A stretch of 64,000 bases of DNA, taken from positions 310,001-374,000 of the forward strand of contig NZ_LRPC01000001.1 of NCBI RefSeq assembly GCF_001592965.1, given 5' to 3'. The notes beneath the pieces were generated by a model. It had not been told where the DNA came from, ran no database searches, and saw only the letters and a program-made list of their open reading frames with translations. This stretch comes from Roseivirga spongicola. GTDB lineage: Bacteria > Bacteroidota > Bacteroidia > Cytophagales > Cyclobacteriaceae. Below, piece by piece: positions 20,612 through 55,358 of the stretch. Both the position numbers and the translations under genes were made by a program. The number at the start of each line of letters is the position of its first letter. Positions within the stretch are counted from its first letter, which is position 1.

Positions 20612-20738
20612 CGATTTATAAAGAAGCGTGGAGAGACAGGCTCTATGAAGCGCTAGCAACCATGCCGACACATCGGCAAAGGTGCTAAATCCTGATCCCA
20701 AATGAGTGTCAAGTTGGCTCTCGGGAGAATATAAATTG
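20612..20738 (+). promoter_or_regulatory. SAM-I (S-box) riboswitch aptamer
   Basis: Helix P1 pairs 20612-20620 with 20730-20738. The conserved cores are present: GTGGAGAGAC, then GAAGCGCTAGCAACC, then a perfect hairpin TGCCGA-CACA-TCGGCA (20663-20678), then AAGGTGCTAAATCC, the most diagnostic S-box segment. SAM binding would lower expression of the downstream metX-hom pair, that is, feedback control of methionine synthesis. Motif and context agree fully. Confidence 0.92.
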
Positions 20739-47535: not shown

Positions 47536-47583
47536 AAACAAAAAAAGCCGATCAATTTGATCGGCTTTTACGCTGTAGCGGGG
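47536..47583 (-). repeat. tRNA-tail/terminator direct repeat, outer copy
   Basis: A 48-bp segment from AAACAAAAAAAGCCGATCA to TTACGCTGTAGCGGG. On the minus strand it reads tRNA acceptor end, spacer, hairpin terminator (GCCGATCA/TGATCGGC) and T run. It is nearly identical to 47879-47926, 343 bp away in the same orientation, differing only around the hairpin loop. The DNA between this repeat and the lipoprotein gene (47256-47535) holds nothing I can name. Confidence 0.85.
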
Positions 47584-47623
47584 ATCGAACCTGCGTCCGT
47601 CACCTGACGGATATGAGCCCAAC
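47575..47623 (-). pseudogene. Degenerate 3' fragment of a CAT-anticodon tRNA
   Basis: On the minus strand the segment starts GTTGGGCTCATA (anticodon-arm-like, anticodon CAT), then diverges into CCGTCAGGTGACGG. It ends with GCAGGTTCGATC and CCCGCTAC, a T-arm/acceptor end with several bases missing. There is no 5' half. It begins at the stop codon of the GIY-YIG gene, so it is a tail copy rather than a functional tRNA. Confidence 0.7.
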
Positions 47624-47877
47624 TAGCCTTTCTTCAATATTTTTGAGCATATAAAATCTCTTCCCCTACTAGATTTTAACTCCTTTTCCCTTTTCATTGC
47701 ACTTGGCTTATCAACATAATCCTCTGTGTAAACAACCTCCCAAGGACGAAATTTTATTGTCCAGCCTTTTGTTGCTAGTTTATTATGGGAAAGCACTCGC
47801 TGCTCCAGATTGCTAGAGTAGCCGATATAAATCTTATCGAATTTCGAAGAATAGAGAACGTAAACTGTGTATGTCAT
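47623..47877 (-). CDS. Small GIY-YIG endonuclease
   Basis: This 84-residue protein starts at the ATG at 47877. It has the compact GIY-YIG core 'YTVYVLYSSKFDKIYIGYSS', then 'LEQRVLSHN', 'WEVVYTEDY' and 'AMKREKELKSSRGR', which contains the expected Arg and Glu. It is a single-domain nuclease. The gene lies exactly between two copies of a tRNA tail plus terminator and ends at the tail fragment. This suggests a small insertion unit or scar at the tRNA locus. It has no own promoter that I can see, and it may be read from the tRNA promoter when the tRNA is intact. Confidence 0.85.
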   Translation of the reverse strand: MTYTVYVLYSSKFDKIYIGYSSNLEQRVLSHNKLATKGWTIKFRPWEVVYTEDYVDKPSAMKREKELKSSRGRDFICSKILKKG

Positions 47878-47878
47878 A

Positions 47879-47926
47879 AAACAAAAAAAGCCGATCAAAA
47901 TGATCGGCTTTTACGCTGTAGCGGGA
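47879..47926 (-). repeat. tRNA-tail/terminator direct repeat, inner copy
   Basis: This is the second copy of the 48-bp unit described at 47536-47583, with hairpin loop AAA instead of ATT. On the minus strand it is the natural terminator of the tRNA whose 3' end lies at about 47918. Confidence 0.85.
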
Positions 47927-47962
47927 GCAGGACTCGAACCTGCGACCTTTGGGTTATGAGCC
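47918..47962 (-). pseudogene. 3' half of a CAT-anticodon tRNA; probable attachment site (left end of element)
   Basis: On the minus strand this reads GGCTCATAACCC (anticodon loop with CAT), variable region AAAGGT, an intact T-arm GCAGG-TTCGAGT-CCTGC and acceptor strand TCCCGCTA. The 5' half is missing: beyond the anticodon stem the sequence becomes unrelated (AT-rich) and the stem pairing breaks. A tyrosine integrase gene follows at 48134. This is the duplicated 3' tRNA segment expected at one end of a tRNA-integrated element; the crossover probably lies near the anticodon loop at 47950-47962. The intact tRNA should be at the far end, outside the window. Confidence 0.8.
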
Positions 47963-48133: not shown

Positions 48134-49474
48134 ATGGCATCTGTTAAACTGGTTTTCTGGAAACACGACAAGAAGAAAGACGGCACCTCACCTATTGCCA
48201 TCAGAATTACAAAAGACCGTAAGACAAGGTATATTTTCACTGGAGAATATGCACAAGAAAAAGACTGGGACTTCAAGCAATCAAAAGTCAAAAAGTCACA
48301 CGTGAACTCCGTTCGCTTAAATAACTTGCTCCAAAAGAAACTTTCTGAGGCTCACGCTGCCATACTAGAAGCTGAAGCAAGTACAGAAGAATTGTCGGCA
48401 AAGCAGATACAAAAGAAGGTAAAACGAACTGGAAAGAATGTTTCATTCTTTCAATTGGCAAGTGAAAGAATTGGTAGAAAATATAATGAAGGCAAATTCT
48501 CGGTTGTTAAGCCTGAAATTTCAATTCTCTATAACATAATGGAATTCATTAACCTCAACCATTCTAAACCGAGACAAAAAGTGGTTGAAGAGATAAAAAA
48601 TCGAAGGTTAGAGCGAATTTCAAAGGCTAGAAAAGGGCTTTATAGTGTCGATGATGAACTTAAAGAATTTGCAAAAAACAGCTCCCTTAGTTTCTCTGAC
48701 ATTGACATGGGCTTCATTAATAACTTTAAAAGTTTCAGTACATCCTATCTAGAACAGAAGCCCAGAACAATAACCAATCAGCTAATCTTCATTCGCACAA
48801 TGTATAACCTTGCAATAAATGAAGGAATCATTGATCGAAAGTATTACCCATTTGCTGGAGAAAATGAAAAAATTAGAATTAAGTCTGGAAACAAAATTGG
48901 TCTTACTAAACCTGAGATCGAACGTATAGAGAAACTAAAATTAGAAAAAGGAAGCTCTATTTGGCATACCAGAAATGTCTGGTTATTCTCATATTATTTT
49001 GCGGGAGTGAGAATTTCGGATGTTCTTGAAATGAAGTGGTCTGATTTTGTTGATGGTCGTCTTTATTATCAGATGAACAAAAATGAAAAACCCGTAAGTC
49101 TGAAAGTTCCAAATAATGCTTCGCAGGTCTTGAGCTTATATTCCAAAGGCAAAAAATCTCAAATGGACTACGTTTTCCCCTTTTTAAAAAAAGCTGACCC
49201 CAAAAGTAAAGTAGACTTGTTCACGAAAACTCGTAACGCAACCAAACTCCTAAACAAATACCTAAAGAGAATAGCTGATATGTGCGACATTGATAAAAAC
49301 TTATCCAATCATATCGCTCGCCATAGTTTCGGAAATATTGCAGGAGACAATATACACCCATTAATGCTACAAAAACTCTACCGGCATACCGACCTAAAAA
49401 CCACTATAAATTATCAGGCCAACTTCATTCATAAGGAAGCGGATGAAGCATTAGAAAAAGTGCTAAACTCCTAA
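48134..49474 (+). CDS. Tyrosine recombinase (integrase)
   Basis: This 446-residue site-specific recombinase has an N-terminal arm-binding domain (about 1-90, 'LVFWKHDKKKDGTSPIAIRI'), a SAM-like core-binding domain (about 95-255) and a catalytic domain. R293 lies in 'AGVRISDV', the H-x-x-R is H393/R396 in 'HIARHSFG', H418 is in 'YRHTD' and nucleophile Y427 in 'INYQA'. All catalytic residues are present, so it is likely active. It lies 170 bp from the tRNA-derived attachment site, as is normal for integrases of Bacteroidota ICEs and IMEs. The 207-bp gap after it shows no gene; it should hold the promoter of the next operon. Confidence 0.95.
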   Translation: MASVKLVFWKHDKKKDGTSPIAIRITKDRKTRYIFTGEYAQEKDWDFKQSKVKKSHVNSVRLNNLLQKKLSEAHAAILEAEASTEELSAKQIQKKVKRTGKNVSFFQLASERIGRKYNEGKFSVVKPEISILYNIMEFINLNHSKPRQKVVEEIKNRRLERISKARKGLYSVDDELKEFAKNSSLSFSDIDMGFINNFKSFSTSYLEQKPRTITNQLIFIRTMYNLAINEGIIDRKYYPFAGENEKIRIKSGNKIGLTKPEIERIEKLKLEKGSSIWHTRNVWLFSYYFAGVRISDVLEMKWSDFVDGRLYYQMNKNEKPVSLKVPNNASQVLSLYSKGKKSQMDYVFPFLKKADPKSKVDLFTKTRNATKLLNKYLKRIADMCDIDKNLSNHIARHSFGNIAGDNIHPLMLQKLYRHTDLKTTINYQANFIHKEADEALEKVLNS

Positions 49475-49681: not shown

Positions 49682-51865
49682 ATGGGATGGATCATATTCA
49701 TATTTATCATTTATGTATTGTATTCATTCACTCGTAAGAAAGAGAAGAAAGTACCTTCAAGGAGTGCAGAAGTGAATTTTAGGAGTGACACTGACTATAT
49801 CCACTCTTATTCTTACTTTGAAAAAGAAAAATCTAAAAATACCTCAAAAGGCAAATGGATCATGCCCGGTGAGGAGGTTTCAATAAAAAGCAAAACCATC
49901 TCAAAAGGACTATTTTATTTTGGCGGAGTTCTAAAAGGTGAAAATTATAACGAAACCGAAAGCTCTTTGGTCGATGAGACTCTTCAAATAAAGGAGAGCC
50001 AATATACTTACACTGATAGTAGCCTTGGATATTGGCCAAGTTTCATTGATTTATCGCCCAGTTGCAGAGGTGCGTATATTGACTGGCTTGCCAGTGATCG
50101 TGATATGTCTGACACCCCGATCGGATATCTATTCATATATTTTTATGGACTGGAAAGGCGCATCATCAAGGACTATAAAGATGGCCTGGTAGGAGATGAA
50201 GAATGTCTTCAGATTTGCAATGAAATAATTCGTCTCAGATCAGTTTTCAGAGATAATTATTCATTTAATAGCTACTCCTCTAATCTTCTAGAATACATTT
50301 CCATCACCCTGCCCCATATTCTTTCCATTCAGGATGATCAAATAGAAAATTCGATAAATTCGAATGTATTTAAAGTAAAACTTGCTCGAATTGCTCAAAA
50401 TAGTGAGCCTTTGAATCCAGAGCTTGCGTTCTCCTGGATATCCAATCATCCAGAACACTCTTTCAGAACACCTGCGAGACGTTGCCCAGAAGAGTTTAGA
50501 ACATTGTTTTTATATAGGTATAAAGAAACCTACAATGATGGCATTGTCATAAAGCCGAACAAAACAAAGCTCAACCTTCATTATCGTCCCGCAAGTAGAA
50601 GTTTAAGCTATTTTAGATACGGTCCGCATGACTTGAGTGATGTAACAGTGCTATCAGGCCCCACCAATAAATTGGCTAAAATTGCCTATCAATGCGTTGA
50701 TGACCTAGATGCTTATAGCAGATATCTCGGGAGAAAAAATTCAAACAAAGAAAGTATTGAAGCTGTCGCCCTTTTACCGAATGAGTTGATTAATGAATTC
50801 CAATTGATCAAAGACCTGAGGCTATGGGCCGAAAATATTATAACTACCAATGATGGCATCTGTGAGTTTAAAGATTTTTGGCGACAAACTAAACTACCCC
50901 TCCCTTCAAAACTGAATAAAAAAGAGCAGGAATTAGCTTGCAACCTCATTGAGAAAATTGGCTACTCAGCTGCACCAGATCTAAACTTACACAGTAGTAA
51001 ACTCAACATTGATGACCCAATTGTGATTTACCATAGGCATGAACCAATAGAATTCAAGAAACAAAAAGTCTTTCGTGATGTGGCTATAAAGTTACGGTTA
51101 GGATCAATTATTGCGAACGCTGATTTGCATATTCATAGTAATGAAAAAACCTATCTTCAGGAACTTATCAACACCAATGACAATCTGTCTTCCGAAGAGA
51201 AATTGTCATTAGAAGCCTATCTTAAATGGCTGTTAATTTCACCCTCTGATTTTTCAGGTCTAAAAAATTCTTTGTCAAAACTCAGTGAGCACAACAAAGA
51301 ATTGGTCAGGAAAATGATCATTCATGTAGCTCTTTCTGATGGCAAAATTGACCCTAATGAAGTCAAAGAAATAGAAAAACTATATACCAGTCTGGGATTT
51401 GATAAATCAGCAGTACCTGCAGACATACACGCGTTATCTTCACGCAAAGTCGAACATGTCTCTACTAGAAAAGATGCCGTTCCAAAAACTAATCAAAACA
51501 AATCCTTCTCTCTAGACGAGAGTGTTTTAAGTTTTCATGAAACAGAAACCAAACAAGCTCAGGACATTTTGAATAATATTTTCAAGAATGAAGATGAGGA
51601 AGAAGAAATGATCCAAGCCATTCCTGAACAAACACTTGAAAATAAAGCATTGTCTATCTATCAAATTATTTCTCATCGAGACCGAATAGAAAAAGATGAA
51701 TTCGAAAGAATTTGTTCTGAATATGGCTTTTTTGTTCAATCTGCTATTGATAGCATAAATGAATGGGCTTTTGAAAAAGTAAACGCACCGGTACTTGAAG
51801 AGGATGTTGATGTAATTGTCGATCGAGAAATTGCGGAAGAATTAAAAGAATACGAGGAAACATGA
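49682..51865 (+). CDS. sngA: Shango-type defence protein A: TerB-N/TerB domain protein
   Basis: This 727-residue protein has a short N-terminal transmembrane segment (residues 2-14) and a basic stretch. A TerB-N domain follows ('GYWPSFIDLSPSCRGAYIDWLASDR', 'GYLFIYFYGLERRI'), then a middle TerB-like segment near 550-580 ('HVALSDGKIDPNEVKEIEKLYTSLGF') and a C-terminal TerB-C-like region ('LSIYQIISHRDRIEKDEFERIC', about 660-710). It overlaps the ATPase gene by 4 bp (ATGA), which in turn overlaps the helicase gene by 4 bp. The trio TerB protein, ATPase and DEAD/DEAH helicase is the published composition of the Shango anti-phage system. The membrane segment suggests membrane attachment. Confidence 0.85.
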   Translation: MGWIIFIFIIYVLYSFTRKKEKKVPSRSAEVNFRSDTDYIHSYSYFEKEKSKNTSKGKWIMPGEEVSIKSKTISKGLFYFGGVLKGENYNETESSLVDETLQIKESQYTYTDSSLGYWPSFIDLSPSCRGAYIDWLASDRDMSDTPIGYLFIYFYGLERRIIKDYKDGLVGDEECLQICNEIIRLRSVFRDNYSFNSYSSNLLEYISITLPHILSIQDDQIENSINSNVFKVKLARIAQNSEPLNPELAFSWISNHPEHSFRTPARRCPEEFRTLFLYRYKETYNDGIVIKPNKTKLNLHYRPASRSLSYFRYGPHDLSDVTVLSGPTNKLAKIAYQCVDDLDAYSRYLGRKNSNKESIEAVALLPNELINEFQLIKDLRLWAENIITTNDGICEFKDFWRQTKLPLPSKLNKKEQELACNLIEKIGYSAAPDLNLHSSKLNIDDPIVIYHRHEPIEFKKQKVFRDVAIKLRLGSIIANADLHIHSNEKTYLQELINTNDNLSSEEKLSLEAYLKWLLISPSDFSGLKNSLSKLSEHNKELVRKMIIHVALSDGKIDPNEVKEIEKLYTSLGFDKSAVPADIHALSSRKVEHVSTRKDAVPKTNQNKSFSLDESVLSFHETETKQAQDILNNIFKNEDEEEEMIQAIPEQTLENKALSIYQIISHRDRIEKDEFERICSEYGFFVQSAIDSINEWAFEKVNAPVLEEDVDVIVDREIAEELKEYEET

Positions 51866-53172
51866 TGAGTGGAATCAAAATTAGAACAAAGGAAAAGGAT
51901 GCAATCATTCAGTCACTAAAGTCTGGAGTTACTCCAAAAATTGGAATACAGCATATTCAGGTAGGTCGAAGTAAAGAGCTTCAAGCTCTACACAAGGATA
52001 TTGAAAGGGTTTGTGATGGTGGCTCAGCATTCCGCTTAATTATCGGAGACTACGGCTCTGGAAAAACATTCTTCTTGAGTGTAGTGAGATCAATCGCACT
52101 AGAAAAAATGCTCGTGACTGTAAATGCAGACTTATCCCCTGATAGAAGAATTCATGCTTCAGGAGGGCAGGCTCGAAATTTATATTCTGAATTGATGAGG
52201 AATATTTCAACCAGAACCAAGCCAGATGGCAATGCACTAACAACCATAGTGGAAAAATTCATCACACTGGCCCGTCAGGAGGCTGATCAAAAAGGTATTG
52301 ATGTTACGGAATCTATCCAAACAAGACTTCAGGCGCTAACTGAATTGGTGGGCGGGTATGATTTTGCAAAAGTCATTGAGGCATATTGGCAAGGGCATGA
52401 AGCGGGTGATGAACATCTTAAATCTAATGCTATTCGATGGCTTAGAGCTGAGTACACTACAAAAACAGATGCAAAAAATGATCTGGGCGTGAGGACAATT
52501 ATTTCAGATGATCATTTCTATGACGCTTTAAAGTTAATGAGTTTGTTTGTGCAACAAGCGGGCTACAATGGGCTTCTGGTCAATTTAGATGAAATGGTTA
52601 ACCTGTATAAACTTCATAGCACTCAAGCCAGAACGTCTAATTATGAGCAAATTCTTCGCATTTTGAATGATTGTCTTCAGGGAAGTGCTGAGAATCTTGG
52701 GTTTCTATTGGGTGGCACACCGGAATTCTTACTTGATCCAAGGAAAGGTCTTTACAGTTATGATGCTCTTCAGACAAGATTGGCTGAAAACAGTTTTGCC
52801 AATAGAGCAGGTGTCATTGATTATTCCTCCCCTGCCCTTCACCTCGCAAGCCTTACTCCTGAAGAGTTGTTCATTTTGCTTAAGAATTTGAGAAATGTTT
52901 TTGCCGGTGGAGATTCTACTAAATACCTAGTTGACGACAGTGCTCTAAAATCATTCCTAGATCATTGTAACAAAACCATAGGCAATGCCTATTTCACTAC
53001 ACCTAGAAACACTATAAAGGCATTCATAGACCTATTGAGTGTCTTAGAACAAAACCCACAACTTGATTGGCAGAACTTAATTGAGGACACAACAATTGCT
53101 ATAGAAACACCAAGTGATATTGATGATGGGCCACTGAATTCTGACGATGAGTTGGTTTCTTTCAAATTATGA
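51862..53172 (+). CDS. sngB: Shango-type defence protein B: DUF2791-like ATPase
   Basis: This 436-residue P-loop ATPase has Walker A at residues 62-69 ('GDYGSGKT') after 'VGRSKELQALHKDIERV'. A Walker B-like 'GLLVNLDEMVNLYK' lies near residues 234-247, and sensor-type 'FLLGGTPEFL' follows. It resembles the DUF2791/BREX BrxD group of ATP-binding proteins. Start and stop overlap both neighbours by 4 bp, so the three proteins are translationally coupled. The protein probably couples ATP hydrolysis to loading or regulation of the helicase; the mechanism is inference. Confidence 0.85.
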   Translation: MMSGIKIRTKEKDAIIQSLKSGVTPKIGIQHIQVGRSKELQALHKDIERVCDGGSAFRLIIGDYGSGKTFFLSVVRSIALEKMLVTVNADLSPDRRIHASGGQARNLYSELMRNISTRTKPDGNALTTIVEKFITLARQEADQKGIDVTESIQTRLQALTELVGGYDFAKVIEAYWQGHEAGDEHLKSNAIRWLRAEYTTKTDAKNDLGVRTIISDDHFYDALKLMSLFVQQAGYNGLLVNLDEMVNLYKLHSTQARTSNYEQILRILNDCLQGSAENLGFLLGGTPEFLLDPRKGLYSYDALQTRLAENSFANRAGVIDYSSPALHLASLTPEELFILLKNLRNVFAGGDSTKYLVDDSALKSFLDHCNKTIGNAYFTTPRNTIKAFIDLLSVLEQNPQLDWQNLIEDTTIAIETPSDIDDGPLNSDDELVSFKL

Positions 53173-55358
53173 CAGAGCCATTTCATAGTTTAGATAGGCG
53201 TATACAAAAATGGATTTTCAAACAGGGCTGGACCGGTTTGAGACAAATTCAAAATGACGCTATTCCTCCAATACTGGCTGGAAATCAGGATGTGATCATC
53301 AGCGCCTCTACAGCAGCTGGTAAAACAGAGGCATTTTTTCTACCAGCTTGTTCTTCAACAATAGATGAAAAGGATGGCTATTCAATACTTTACATTAGCC
53401 CCTTAAAAGCTCTCATCAATGATCAATATAGAAGGCTTGAAAGTCTAAGTATCATTACCGACATTAATGTTACTCCCTGGCACGGTGATGTAGCACAAAG
53501 CCTAAAGACCAAATCAAAACGCAACCCTTCTGGCATTGTACTTATAACACCTGAGTCGTTAGAATCATTATTGATCAGGAATTCTGGCTGGGTTCAAAGG
53601 TCCTTTTCATCCTTAAAGTACATTGTAATAGATGAATTTCATGCCTTCATCGGTACTGAACGAGGTCAACACCTCTTATCACTTTTAAATAGACTAGAAG
53701 CCCTACTCCAAGAGATTGAAGAGCCTATTCCAAGGGTAGCTTTAAGTGCAACCTTAGGCAACTTAGATGAAATCCCTGGGGTATTAAGACAAAACGCCCA
53801 AATGCCCTGTTCCATAATTAAGGAGAGTAAATCCAACTCTCAGATTAGGTTTGGCATTCAAGGCTATATTGACCCTATAGACAACGACCAGAAGATACCA
53901 GCATTTCATCGAATATGTACTGATCTCTTTTCTCTCTGTAGAGGAGGTTCACATTTGATATTTGCGAATAGCCGAAAAAGAACTGAAAGTATTAGCGCTC
54001 AATTAAGTGATATGTGTGAACAAGAAGTTGTTCCTAATGAGTTTTTTCCACATCATGGATCGCTTGATAAAAGCCTTAGAGAAGCTTTAGAAGCCAGACT
54101 TCAAAAAGATAATCTCCCCACTACGGCAGTTTGCACAATGACTCTGGAACTTGGGATTGATATAGGAAAAGTGGATTCTGTTATACAGGTAACTGCACCT
54201 CATTCTGTAGCCAGTTTACGTCAAAGGTTAGGTCGTTCTGGACGAAGAAACACCCCCTCTACGCTCCGAATGCTTATTTCTGAAAAGGAAATAAACGTAG
54301 ATTCTAGCATCGGAGACAAGTTGAGAATAGAGTTACTTCAATCAATAGCGATGACCCGGCTTCTTATTATTCAAAAATGGTATGAACCAGCTGATTTAGG
54401 AAGCTTTCACTTTTCTACACTTCTGCATCAAATTTTGGCGCTAATTGCCCAATGGGGTGGCATTAGGGCAGATCAAATTTACAACTCTCTCTGTAAAGAG
54501 GGATGCTTCAATAATGTAACGGTCGAGCAGTTTAAAGAACTCCTACACCATATGGGGCAACAAGACCTGCTTACACAAATATCTGGAGGACAACTGGTTT
54601 TAGGGCTTAAAGGTGAATATTTAACAAATAGCTATAATTTCTATACGGTTTTTAAGACCCCTCAAGAATTTCGAGTAATTGCTGGAGATAAGACATTGGG
54701 AACTTTGCCTGTTGACACCCTAATATTGGAAGGACAACACATTATTTTTTCTGGCAAACGATGGAGGGTTGAAAACATTAATACTGATAATAAAACCATA
54801 ATTGTATCTCCTTCTAAAGGAGGGGATCCTCCGCAATTCAATGGCCATGGAATGATAGTTCACGATATTGTCAGACAAGAAATGTTTAACATCTATAAAA
54901 GTGGAAACTACAAAATTCCAGTTGGCACGTCTGAGGTAGATTACTTAGACTCAACCGCCAAATCTCTTTTCAACGAGGGACTCGAATTCTTCCAGGAAGC
55001 ATTACTTCATGAGCGGAGAATTTTTCAAAATAACGATTACGTATATATAGTCCCCTGGATGGGTGATAAAATTGTAAATACGATTGCCACAATGTTGATT
55101 AAGCTTAATTATAAGGTCTCTATATTCTCAGGCATCATAGAAATTGAAAAAACGAATTTGGAATCTGTTTCAAATTCACTGTTTGAATCATGCTCAAACA
55201 AGCAGCTCACCAATTCAGATCTTGCCTTGTCTGTCAGAGAAAAAAGGATTGAAAAGTATGACGATTTTTTACCCGAATCTTTGCTCAATATAGGCTATGG
55301 CCAGAATTACTTTGATGTAGAGCGAGCTAGAGAATGGATTAAATTACACCTAGTTTAA
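53169..55358 (+). CDS. sngC: Shango-type defence protein C: Lhr-like DEAD/DEAH helicase
   Basis: This 729-residue superfamily 2 helicase has a Q-motif-like 'LRQIQNDAIPPILAG', Walker A 'STAAGKT' (47-53), 'YISPLKALINDQ', DEAD-box-type 'VIDEFHAF' (near 156) and 'VALSATLG'. The C-terminal helicase motifs are 'MTLELGIDIGKVDSVIQ' and 'LRQRLGRSGRR'. The remaining ~330 residues resemble the winged-helix and C-terminal regions of Lhr helicases. It is the effector-like component of the Shango operon; the last gene, with no obvious terminator after it (55359-55492 is non-coding and AT-rich). Confidence 0.88.
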   Translation: MTEPFHSLDRRIQKWIFKQGWTGLRQIQNDAIPPILAGNQDVIISASTAAGKTEAFFLPACSSTIDEKDGYSILYISPLKALINDQYRRLESLSIITDINVTPWHGDVAQSLKTKSKRNPSGIVLITPESLESLLIRNSGWVQRSFSSLKYIVIDEFHAFIGTERGQHLLSLLNRLEALLQEIEEPIPRVALSATLGNLDEIPGVLRQNAQMPCSIIKESKSNSQIRFGIQGYIDPIDNDQKIPAFHRICTDLFSLCRGGSHLIFANSRKRTESISAQLSDMCEQEVVPNEFFPHHGSLDKSLREALEARLQKDNLPTTAVCTMTLELGIDIGKVDSVIQVTAPHSVASLRQRLGRSGRRNTPSTLRMLISEKEINVDSSIGDKLRIELLQSIAMTRLLIIQKWYEPADLGSFHFSTLLHQILALIAQWGGIRADQIYNSLCKEGCFNNVTVEQFKELLHHMGQQDLLTQISGGQLVLGLKGEYLTNSYNFYTVFKTPQEFRVIAGDKTLGTLPVDTLILEGQHIIFSGKRWRVENINTDNKTIIVSPSKGGDPPQFNGHGMIVHDIVRQEMFNIYKSGNYKIPVGTSEVDYLDSTAKSLFNEGLEFFQEALLHERRIFQNNDYVYIVPWMGDKIVNTIATMLIKLNYKVSIFSGIIEIEKTNLESVSNSLFESCSNKQLTNSDLALSVREKRIEKYDDFLPESLLNIGYGQNYFDVERAREWIKLHLV

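Follow-up and report, generated by a model that had tools for sequence, protein, structure and literature searches.

Why should a gene for a very small nuclease lie, with almost nothing else, between two copies of the same tRNA end and terminator? The question is posed by a 64,000-nucleotide stretch of the Roseivirga spongicola genome (contig NZ_LRPC01000001.1, positions 310,001–374,000; called the window below, its genome being G000). An initial annotation of this DNA had described a 48-bp direct repeat, recurring 343 bp apart and made up of a tRNA acceptor end and a terminator hairpin, and had proposed that the interval is a minimal mobile unit inserted at a tRNA-Met-like gene. A repeat search of the window confirms the spacing and the content of the repeat but not its length; the two copies (47536–47582 and 47879–47925) are 47 nt long and 96% identical, and each comprises a terminator-like hairpin and a tRNA acceptor end on the minus strand.

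Anatomy of the unit

Read along the minus strand, the order of elements is tRNA-Met 3′ end, terminator, GIY-YIG ORF, degenerate tRNA 3′ part and a near-identical second terminator. The tRNA-Met end is a 45-nt segment at 47918–47962 that overlaps the first repeat copy (47879–47925). It is followed by terminator-like hairpin 1 (47886–47912; inverted repeat I10, then a T run) and by the 84-aa ORF (47623–47877; Pfam PF01541, E=3.9e-14), whose ATG lies just past that T run and whose frame is open to a TTG at 47898. As first described, the interval holds one GIY-YIG ORF and a degenerate second copy of the tRNA 3′ part that begins at its stop codon (47572–47622). Within this second copy the 16-nt palindrome TCCGTCAGGTGACGGA (minus strand; 47596–47611) replaces the 3′ side of the anticodon arm, an arrangement that recurs in the congener G009, and the second repeat copy (47536–47582) carries terminator-like hairpin 2 (47543–47569; inverted repeat I9). 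The single ORF fills the whole unit, which has no integrase of its own. A search of the window with ARAGORN yields no complete tRNA, and the sole Rfam match at gathering score there is a SAM riboswitch at 20613–20737 (+).

The tRNA gene itself is intact and lies 60 kb from the unit. It encodes an initiator tRNA-Met(CAT) (G000:C1:417759–417832, minus strand), thereby giving the tRNA-Met-like gene of the initial annotation its identity, and its last 45 nt (nt 30–74) are repeated with 100% identity at window 47918–47962. Between the two lies a ~60-kb integrative element with a tyrosine recombinase, encoded outside the unit at 48134–49474 (+; Pfam Arm-DNA-bind_5, Phage_int_SAM_5 and Phage_integrase). 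The presence of this element and of the 45-nt repeat agrees with the earlier suggestion that a larger element later used the tRNA end of the unit as its attachment site. The original order would have been tRNA-fMet, terminator, ORF, second tRNA end, terminator; the ~60-kb element would then have taken the same tRNA end as attachment site and split the intact tRNA from the unit, and the 45 nt that originally preceded the unit would now be one attachment repeat of the integrative element. Behind the integrase, at window 49682–55358, three adjacent genes match PADLOC SngA, SngB and SngC (E 3e-79, 1e-183 and 1e-260), which we take to be names of the Shango anti-phage system, and the element seems to carry a defence system. 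Partial fMet 3′ repeats are also found 2–95 kb from the fMet gene in G005, G010, G006 and G001, and this attachment site may serve further elements in the genus. That genus is taken to be Roseivirga, to which a record named Roseivirga sp. E12 belongs whose encoded protein is identical to that of the congener G013.

Other units in the genome

The same layout is present at three tRNA genes of this genome (38 tRNA matches are listed): fMet, Val(TAC) and a second tRNA with a CAT anticodon. Four tandem units lie behind tRNA-Val(TAC), with spacings of 413, 412 and 412 bp, and one unit plus the start of a second ORF lies behind the CAT-anticodon tRNA, which from its anticodon arm is probably tRNA-Ile2. 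Since the layout recurs four times at tRNA-Val(TAC) and again at the second CAT-anticodon tRNA, that of the window is not a chance arrangement. In all, the genome has 14 Pfam GIY-YIG matches, one of which, judged by its length, is probably UvrC. A decayed unit is visible at tRNA-Asp (G000:C28:996214–996533), where a hairpin-bearing tRNA end is accompanied by an ORF fragment with a stop (C28:996444–996533). Palindromes of the TCCCGA kind are found a short distance upstream of tRNA-Asn and of one further tRNA match (G000:C1:813497–813514; C31:113669–113753), and the motif TCCCGA(N0-12)TCGGGA occurs at 53 places in the genome, as against 8 for a reversed control.

Distribution across Bacteroidota

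The window unit is one of a widespread class of ~0.3–0.55 kb units across Bacteroidota. Relatives were collected with a profile (A2) of 20 ORFs picked for tRNA linkage, and its score ranking favours the tRNA-linked clade because it was built from linked ORFs. At E<=1e-3, a limit that also admits unlinked cousins, 44 of the 60 class genomes have a match; at 1e-14, matches occur in 16 of 59 genomes of the order and in 44 of 80 genomes of the phylum. The initial annotation had staked its proposal on tRNA linkage among relatives, and the proposal survives: in a class census of 89 matched places a same-strand tRNA adjoins 35 of 48 relatives that score at least 62 bits and 3 of 41 below that line, which was set once the scores had been seen. 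Among the 48, a tRNA lies within 600 bp upstream in 30, only within 300 bp downstream in five and at neither side in 13; the corresponding numbers among the 41 are two, one and 38. The census covers matches outside G000 with E below about 2e-12, apart from two that fall within other loci. In a pooled set of 196 distinct ORFs that cover at least 50 profile positions, which mixes overlapping samples, the linked fraction by falling score is 70/84, 17/23, 18/23, 10/20, 4/37 and 0/9.

The linked ORFs fall under 25 tRNA labels. Second copies could be placed for 19 anticodon labels from 46 genomes, and in the 47 units that were measured the end of the second copy lies a median of 379 bp from the end of the tRNA (range 300–553). 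Linkage was read from ARAGORN and the label is that of the nearest ARAGORN tRNA, which is wrong at least once (inspection of L108, which has the label Ser, shows a 5′ unit at tRNA-Pro); ORFs without an ARAGORN tRNA were counted as unlinked, and a tRNA end is visible by eye in L103, L105, L113 and L133. On contig G187:C34 eight ORF matches follow one another in ~364-bp steps, one of them with an internal stop. Tandem arrays, together with the spare-copy palindromes, the lineages that follow tRNA type and the mirrored form described below, go beyond what the initial annotation had noticed.

Related GIY-YIG ORFs also lie away from tRNAs, and 28 of the 39 with enough flanking sequence are flanked by direct or inverted repeats (controls, 1/60 and 3/77). 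They include L016, L017, L018, L019 and weaker census loci, and are possibly autonomous copies of REP/MITE-like repeats. On a contig of a Candidatus Berkelbacteria MAG (L275) a similar GIY-YIG ORF stands behind tRNA-Thr(CGT) and ends in a second tRNA 3′ part; this is maybe an instance of the design outside Bacteroidota, or else a misbinned contig. With the Asp-type protein L068 as the only query, phage and plasmid records gave 4 and 22 matches, each below 60% identity. Viral contigs gave no match to the window protein and one locus with L068, at which 22 of 82 residues match. Among the matches listed by a literature search that covered few subscription papers, there was no description of such bacterial units.

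The second tRNA copy and the mirrored form

The typical order is intact tRNA, terminator, ORF, second tRNA copy with palindrome-broken arms, and the terminator again. A second copy reaches an alignment score of at least 50 in 78 of 106 linked units (69 at the 3′ side and nine at the 5′ side) and is absent at that threshold in 28. Because a scan through alignment gaps (36/78) misses arms that have been swapped gaplessly, hairpins were scanned for directly (stem at least 6, loop at most 8) in 59 copies placed by their conserved end: 53 of these contain a perfect hairpin, compared with 17 of 59 intact tRNAs and 12.8% of shuffles. In none of the 59 do the three arms all survive; among the 51 second copies of the 3′ kind, 24 have an intact T arm. 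The palindromes are often similar phylum-wide (TCCCGA..TCGGGA and TCCGCC..GGCGGA).

The 35 nt behind the tRNA and behind the second copy have a median identity of 0.91 within a unit (at least 0.8 in 32 of 50), whereas the 35 nt behind tRNAs of the same type in different genomes have a median identity of 0.49 (at least 0.8 in 4 of 214 ordered pairs). The worry, voiced with the original proposal, that the repeats are ordinary terminators found widely is answered by this locus specificity. Chance or plain terminators are ruled out: the terminator sequence varies between genomes, yet it is duplicated within most units. The ORF often starts shortly past a T run (at least five T within 20 nt in 49 of 84).

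A mirrored form, in which the ORF precedes the intact tRNA and follows a palindrome-bearing 5′ copy of that tRNA, occurs at six loci (L109, L110, L117, L134, L141 and, with a broken ORF, L151); in L109 and L117 the sequence preceding the tRNA is duplicated as well. Of the six Ser(TGA) ORFs, five group in one clade (SH-aLRT 89) that spans 3′ and 5′ units, and the sixth, L260, lies elsewhere.

The nuclease and its lineages

The structure model of the window protein is one compact domain (pLDDT 93), and residues Y6, Y17, G19, R27 and E64, which we take to be catalytic, are invariant across 26 rows. A separate DNA-binding module of the I-TevI or Seg type is lacking, the window protein having 84 aa and the other rows a similar length. 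The closest solved structures are UPF0213 BH0048 and SLX1, a nuclease of branched DNA, and UPF0213 GIY-YIG proteins (PDB 1zg2 and 1ywl), listed as hypothetical proteins, are the closest solved sequences and fold. GIY-YIG is the sole Pfam match in three unit proteins, which show no Y1 (HUH) transposase domain; the nucleases have only weak matches in PHROGs and NCBIfam and none in PADLOC. The ORF is under purifying selection between genomes, where dS is mostly saturated and dN is about 0.1–0.6. The median dN/dS is 0.16 over 14 usable pairs, which are mostly within-genome copies, and the four Val copies of G000 show little constraint.

Enzyme lineages tend to keep to one tRNA type, an association that is statistical and has exceptions. 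On a tree of 148 ORFs, which has few columns and many weak forks, the tRNA types of the 113 labelled ORFs (25 types) require 44 changes, whereas 200 shuffles average 84.9 and never fall below 77. The count is 45 (84.8 shuffled) with the catalytic core only, 45 (75.1) with one row per genome and type, and 45 (68.4, minimum 63) when the window's genus enters once per type. When each labelled ORF is paired with the closest ORF from a different genome, the tRNA types agree in 66 of 113 pairs (8.4 expected) and differ in 47; the link is therefore not strict, and at least one of the mismatched neighbours is due to label errors such as that of L108.

Gain and loss

The initial annotation had looked to a comparison of occupied and empty tRNA loci, and such a pair exists at tRNA-Asn in two sister species, G004 with a unit and G006 without, whose tRNA and preceding 397 nt are 95% identical. 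The G006 allele is 402 bp shorter, about one repeat period, and consists of the intact tRNA, one terminator, the first 12 nt of the G004 ORF and then the common flank. This difference fits recombination between the repeats, and since the 12-nt ORF start is still there the vacancy is likelier a loss than a pre-insertion state. Of 30 units that are followed by no further ORF, 8 likewise repeat the initial 12 nt of the ORF beyond the second terminator (0/608 for random stretches).

Units are patchily distributed within the genus. At tRNA-Val(TAC) one is present in 7 of 18 genomes, three of them at contig ends with partial ORFs, a count in which the G006 remnant and older relics are taken as absent, G010 is excluded because its contig stops 6 nt past the tRNA, and the tRNA of G016 has only 84% identity. 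Occupancy needs six changes on the carB tree (shuffled mean 5.8) and thus clusters no better than chance; the Val tRNA is 100% identical between occupied and vacant congeners. The Val ORF tree joins G000 with G002, and a constraint uniting G001 and G002, which is nearer to the carB tree, is rejected (p 0.029 for protein and 0.004 for DNA), a conflict that depends on a single species marker and on a grouping named with the trees already seen. Of the 18 genus genomes in which the fMet gene was located, two have an fMet unit, namely G000 and G009, the latter with an internal stop in the ORF. Four others have a distant second fMet end with no listed relative of the window ORF beside it. G015 falls short of a clean vacant fMet site; its upstream tRNA flank is shared and its terminator near-identical, yet beyond the terminator nothing matching the G000 flank was found.

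Comparison with known elements

Several known systems share parts of this design. As in ICEs, islands and prophages that target tRNA genes, a tRNA 3′ end is used and restored and the flanks are direct repeats; the tRNA end is duplicated and a complete tRNA is kept. The units differ from such integrative elements in their size (~0.4 kb), in having no recombinase, in the mirrored 5′ form and in their tandem arrays. In REP elements with RAYT transposases a single nuclease is linked to short palindromes, and the units also have short palindromes linked to a nuclease gene (53/59 second copies), but they have a GIY-YIG domain in place of the Y1 transposase and sit at tRNA genes. In an archaeal case, as far as the available part of its description goes, the tRNA-Thr of Caldiarchaeum is disrupted by a 1.8 kb element with a predicted recombinase gene, which similarly lies as a mobile element between a tRNA fragment and a tRNA (PMC3293823).

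SegB of phage T6 is the nearest analogue, and serves as proof of principle for the mechanism. According to the available part of its description, it is a homing nuclease of the GIY-YIG family whose cuts fall inside tRNA genes, prefers RAWTSGAAC, is associated with tRNAs in phages without isotype preference, and gives rise to tandem amplifications that require SegB activity and recombination genes (PMC13096335). The reverse complement of its site, GTTCSAWTY, by our reading resembles a T-loop. On the same partial account, the units are like SegB and the free-standing GIY-YIG homing endonucleases of T-even phages in that the nuclease gene adjoins tRNA genes and undergoes tandem amplification (PMC13096335); unlike the phage-borne SegB, they lie on bacterial chromosomes, encode proteins of ~77–101 aa, have lineages that follow tRNA type and keep the tRNA intact. 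The palindrome-spoiled tRNA copy is a feature of the units that the available part of the SegB description does not mention (PMC13096335).

What the units may be

The earlier idea of a minimal mobile unit at a tRNA gene with a duplicated tRNA end gains support from the census linkage, the locus-specific terminator repeat, the G004/G006 pair and the integrative element with its attachment repeat. The explanation we prefer, and to which we give somewhat better than an even chance, is that the unit is a selfish minimal nuclease cassette, specific to one tRNA gene, that recombines in after its cognate tRNA gene has presumably been cut and leaves the tRNA whole. The nuclease would cut or nick the cognate tRNA gene, and the break would be repaired from a unit-bearing copy on incoming DNA or on the sister chromosome; one broken end would pair with the intact tRNA and the other with the second tRNA end, a pairing that would copy the unit in and yield a complete tRNA. 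The repeats of the unit would allow array growth and precise drop-out, the palindromes would disarm the spare tRNA copy, suiting it for neither tRNA function nor cleavage, and occasional self-cutting repaired from a neighbouring copy could make arrays such as those seen. In its favour we count the recurrence at three tRNA genes of this genome, the census linkage, the link between lineage and tRNA type, the hairpins, the duplicated 35 nt, the G004/G006 pair, the patchy Val units, the Val ORF tree in conflict with the carB tree, the Ser(TGA) clade of 3′ and 5′ units and the precedent of SegB.

From its sequence the unit behaves like a homing element with putative cleavage: it has a nuclease domain with conserved residues, occupied and vacant alleles, and a lineage tied to its target gene. 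If the tRNA is the recognition site, however, insertion does not destroy it, since the intact tRNA and terminator remain, and congeners with and without a Val unit have the same Val tRNA sequence (100% identity). The unit is for that reason not filed as a standard homing endonuclease gene; the usual self-protection by site destruction is missing, which is a problem for a homing explanation because the intact tRNA beside the unit should remain open to cutting. Also to be set against the nuclease cassette are the lack of a separate DNA-binding module, the 28 of 106 units without a second copy, the 47 of 113 mismatched neighbours, the separate position of L260, the little constraint on the Val copies, the ORF trace in the G006 allele, the stop in the G009 fMet ORF and the dependence of the tree conflict on a single marker and on a grouping chosen afterwards.

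The nuclease might instead act on the short palindromes (TCCCGA..TCGGGA and kin), as part of a REP-like, palindrome-mobilising unit that favours stem-loop DNA such as tRNA arms. The palindromes in 53 of 59 second copies and the repeat-flanked unlinked cousins (28/39 against controls of 1/60 and 3/77) keep such a system alive, and the 53 genomic places of the TCCCGA motif (8 for the reversed control) and the presence of the branched-DNA nuclease SLX1 among the nearest solved structures point the same way; it leaves the link between lineage and tRNA type and the adjoining intact tRNA unexplained, and we regard it as unlikely, if worth keeping in view. That the ORF is a static, vertically inherited gene with a host role, copied and lost through unequal recombination between the repeats alone, would suit the purifying selection between genomes and the G006 allele, which resembles a precise loss, and inheritance at each tRNA locus would likewise produce clustering by tRNA type. 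This seems to us distinctly improbable: Val occupancy is unclustered on the carB tree (six changes, 5.8 shuffled), the fMet unit is in just 2 of 18 genus genomes, a single nuclease clade holds 3′ and 5′ forms, and the Val ORF and carB trees conflict.

A function at the RNA level, with the nuclease attacking its cognate tRNA and the spoiled copy acting as decoy or antidote, would account for the tRNA-type specificity and for a second copy that resembles a tRNA and may share a transcript with the ORF. GIY-YIG enzymes are known as DNA nucleases, though, and an RNA target needs neither adjacency to a tRNA gene nor a duplicated terminator or promoter region, so this is very unlikely. Finally, the 45-nt attachment repeat overlaps the first 47-nt copy, and the repeat might be nothing but the attachment duplication of the integrative element. 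Units at tRNA-Val, the CAT-anticodon tRNA and the G009 fMet gene contradict this, since in each of them the tRNA immediately precedes the unit with no intervening integrase, and make the attachment duplication a next to negligible prospect.

A broader proposal, which we put somewhat short of an even chance, is that the nuclease cassettes are a new class of mobile element: phylum-wide, ~0.4 kb, one-gene cassettes, each nuclease lineage dedicated to one tRNA gene, settling at either side of it, regenerating the whole tRNA and leaving a discarded copy disarmed by a palindrome, with the tRNA gene as homing site and its recombinational repair as the mechanism of transposition. If this is true, few self-sufficient mobile units would be smaller, and their landing sites would be essential genes, the tRNAs, that come to no harm. 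The cassettes offer a set of natural nucleases that seem to differ in their tRNA-gene specificity and a direct test case of a nuclease that tolerates an intact target next to itself, and they may be where palindromic repeats of Bacteroidota genomes come from.
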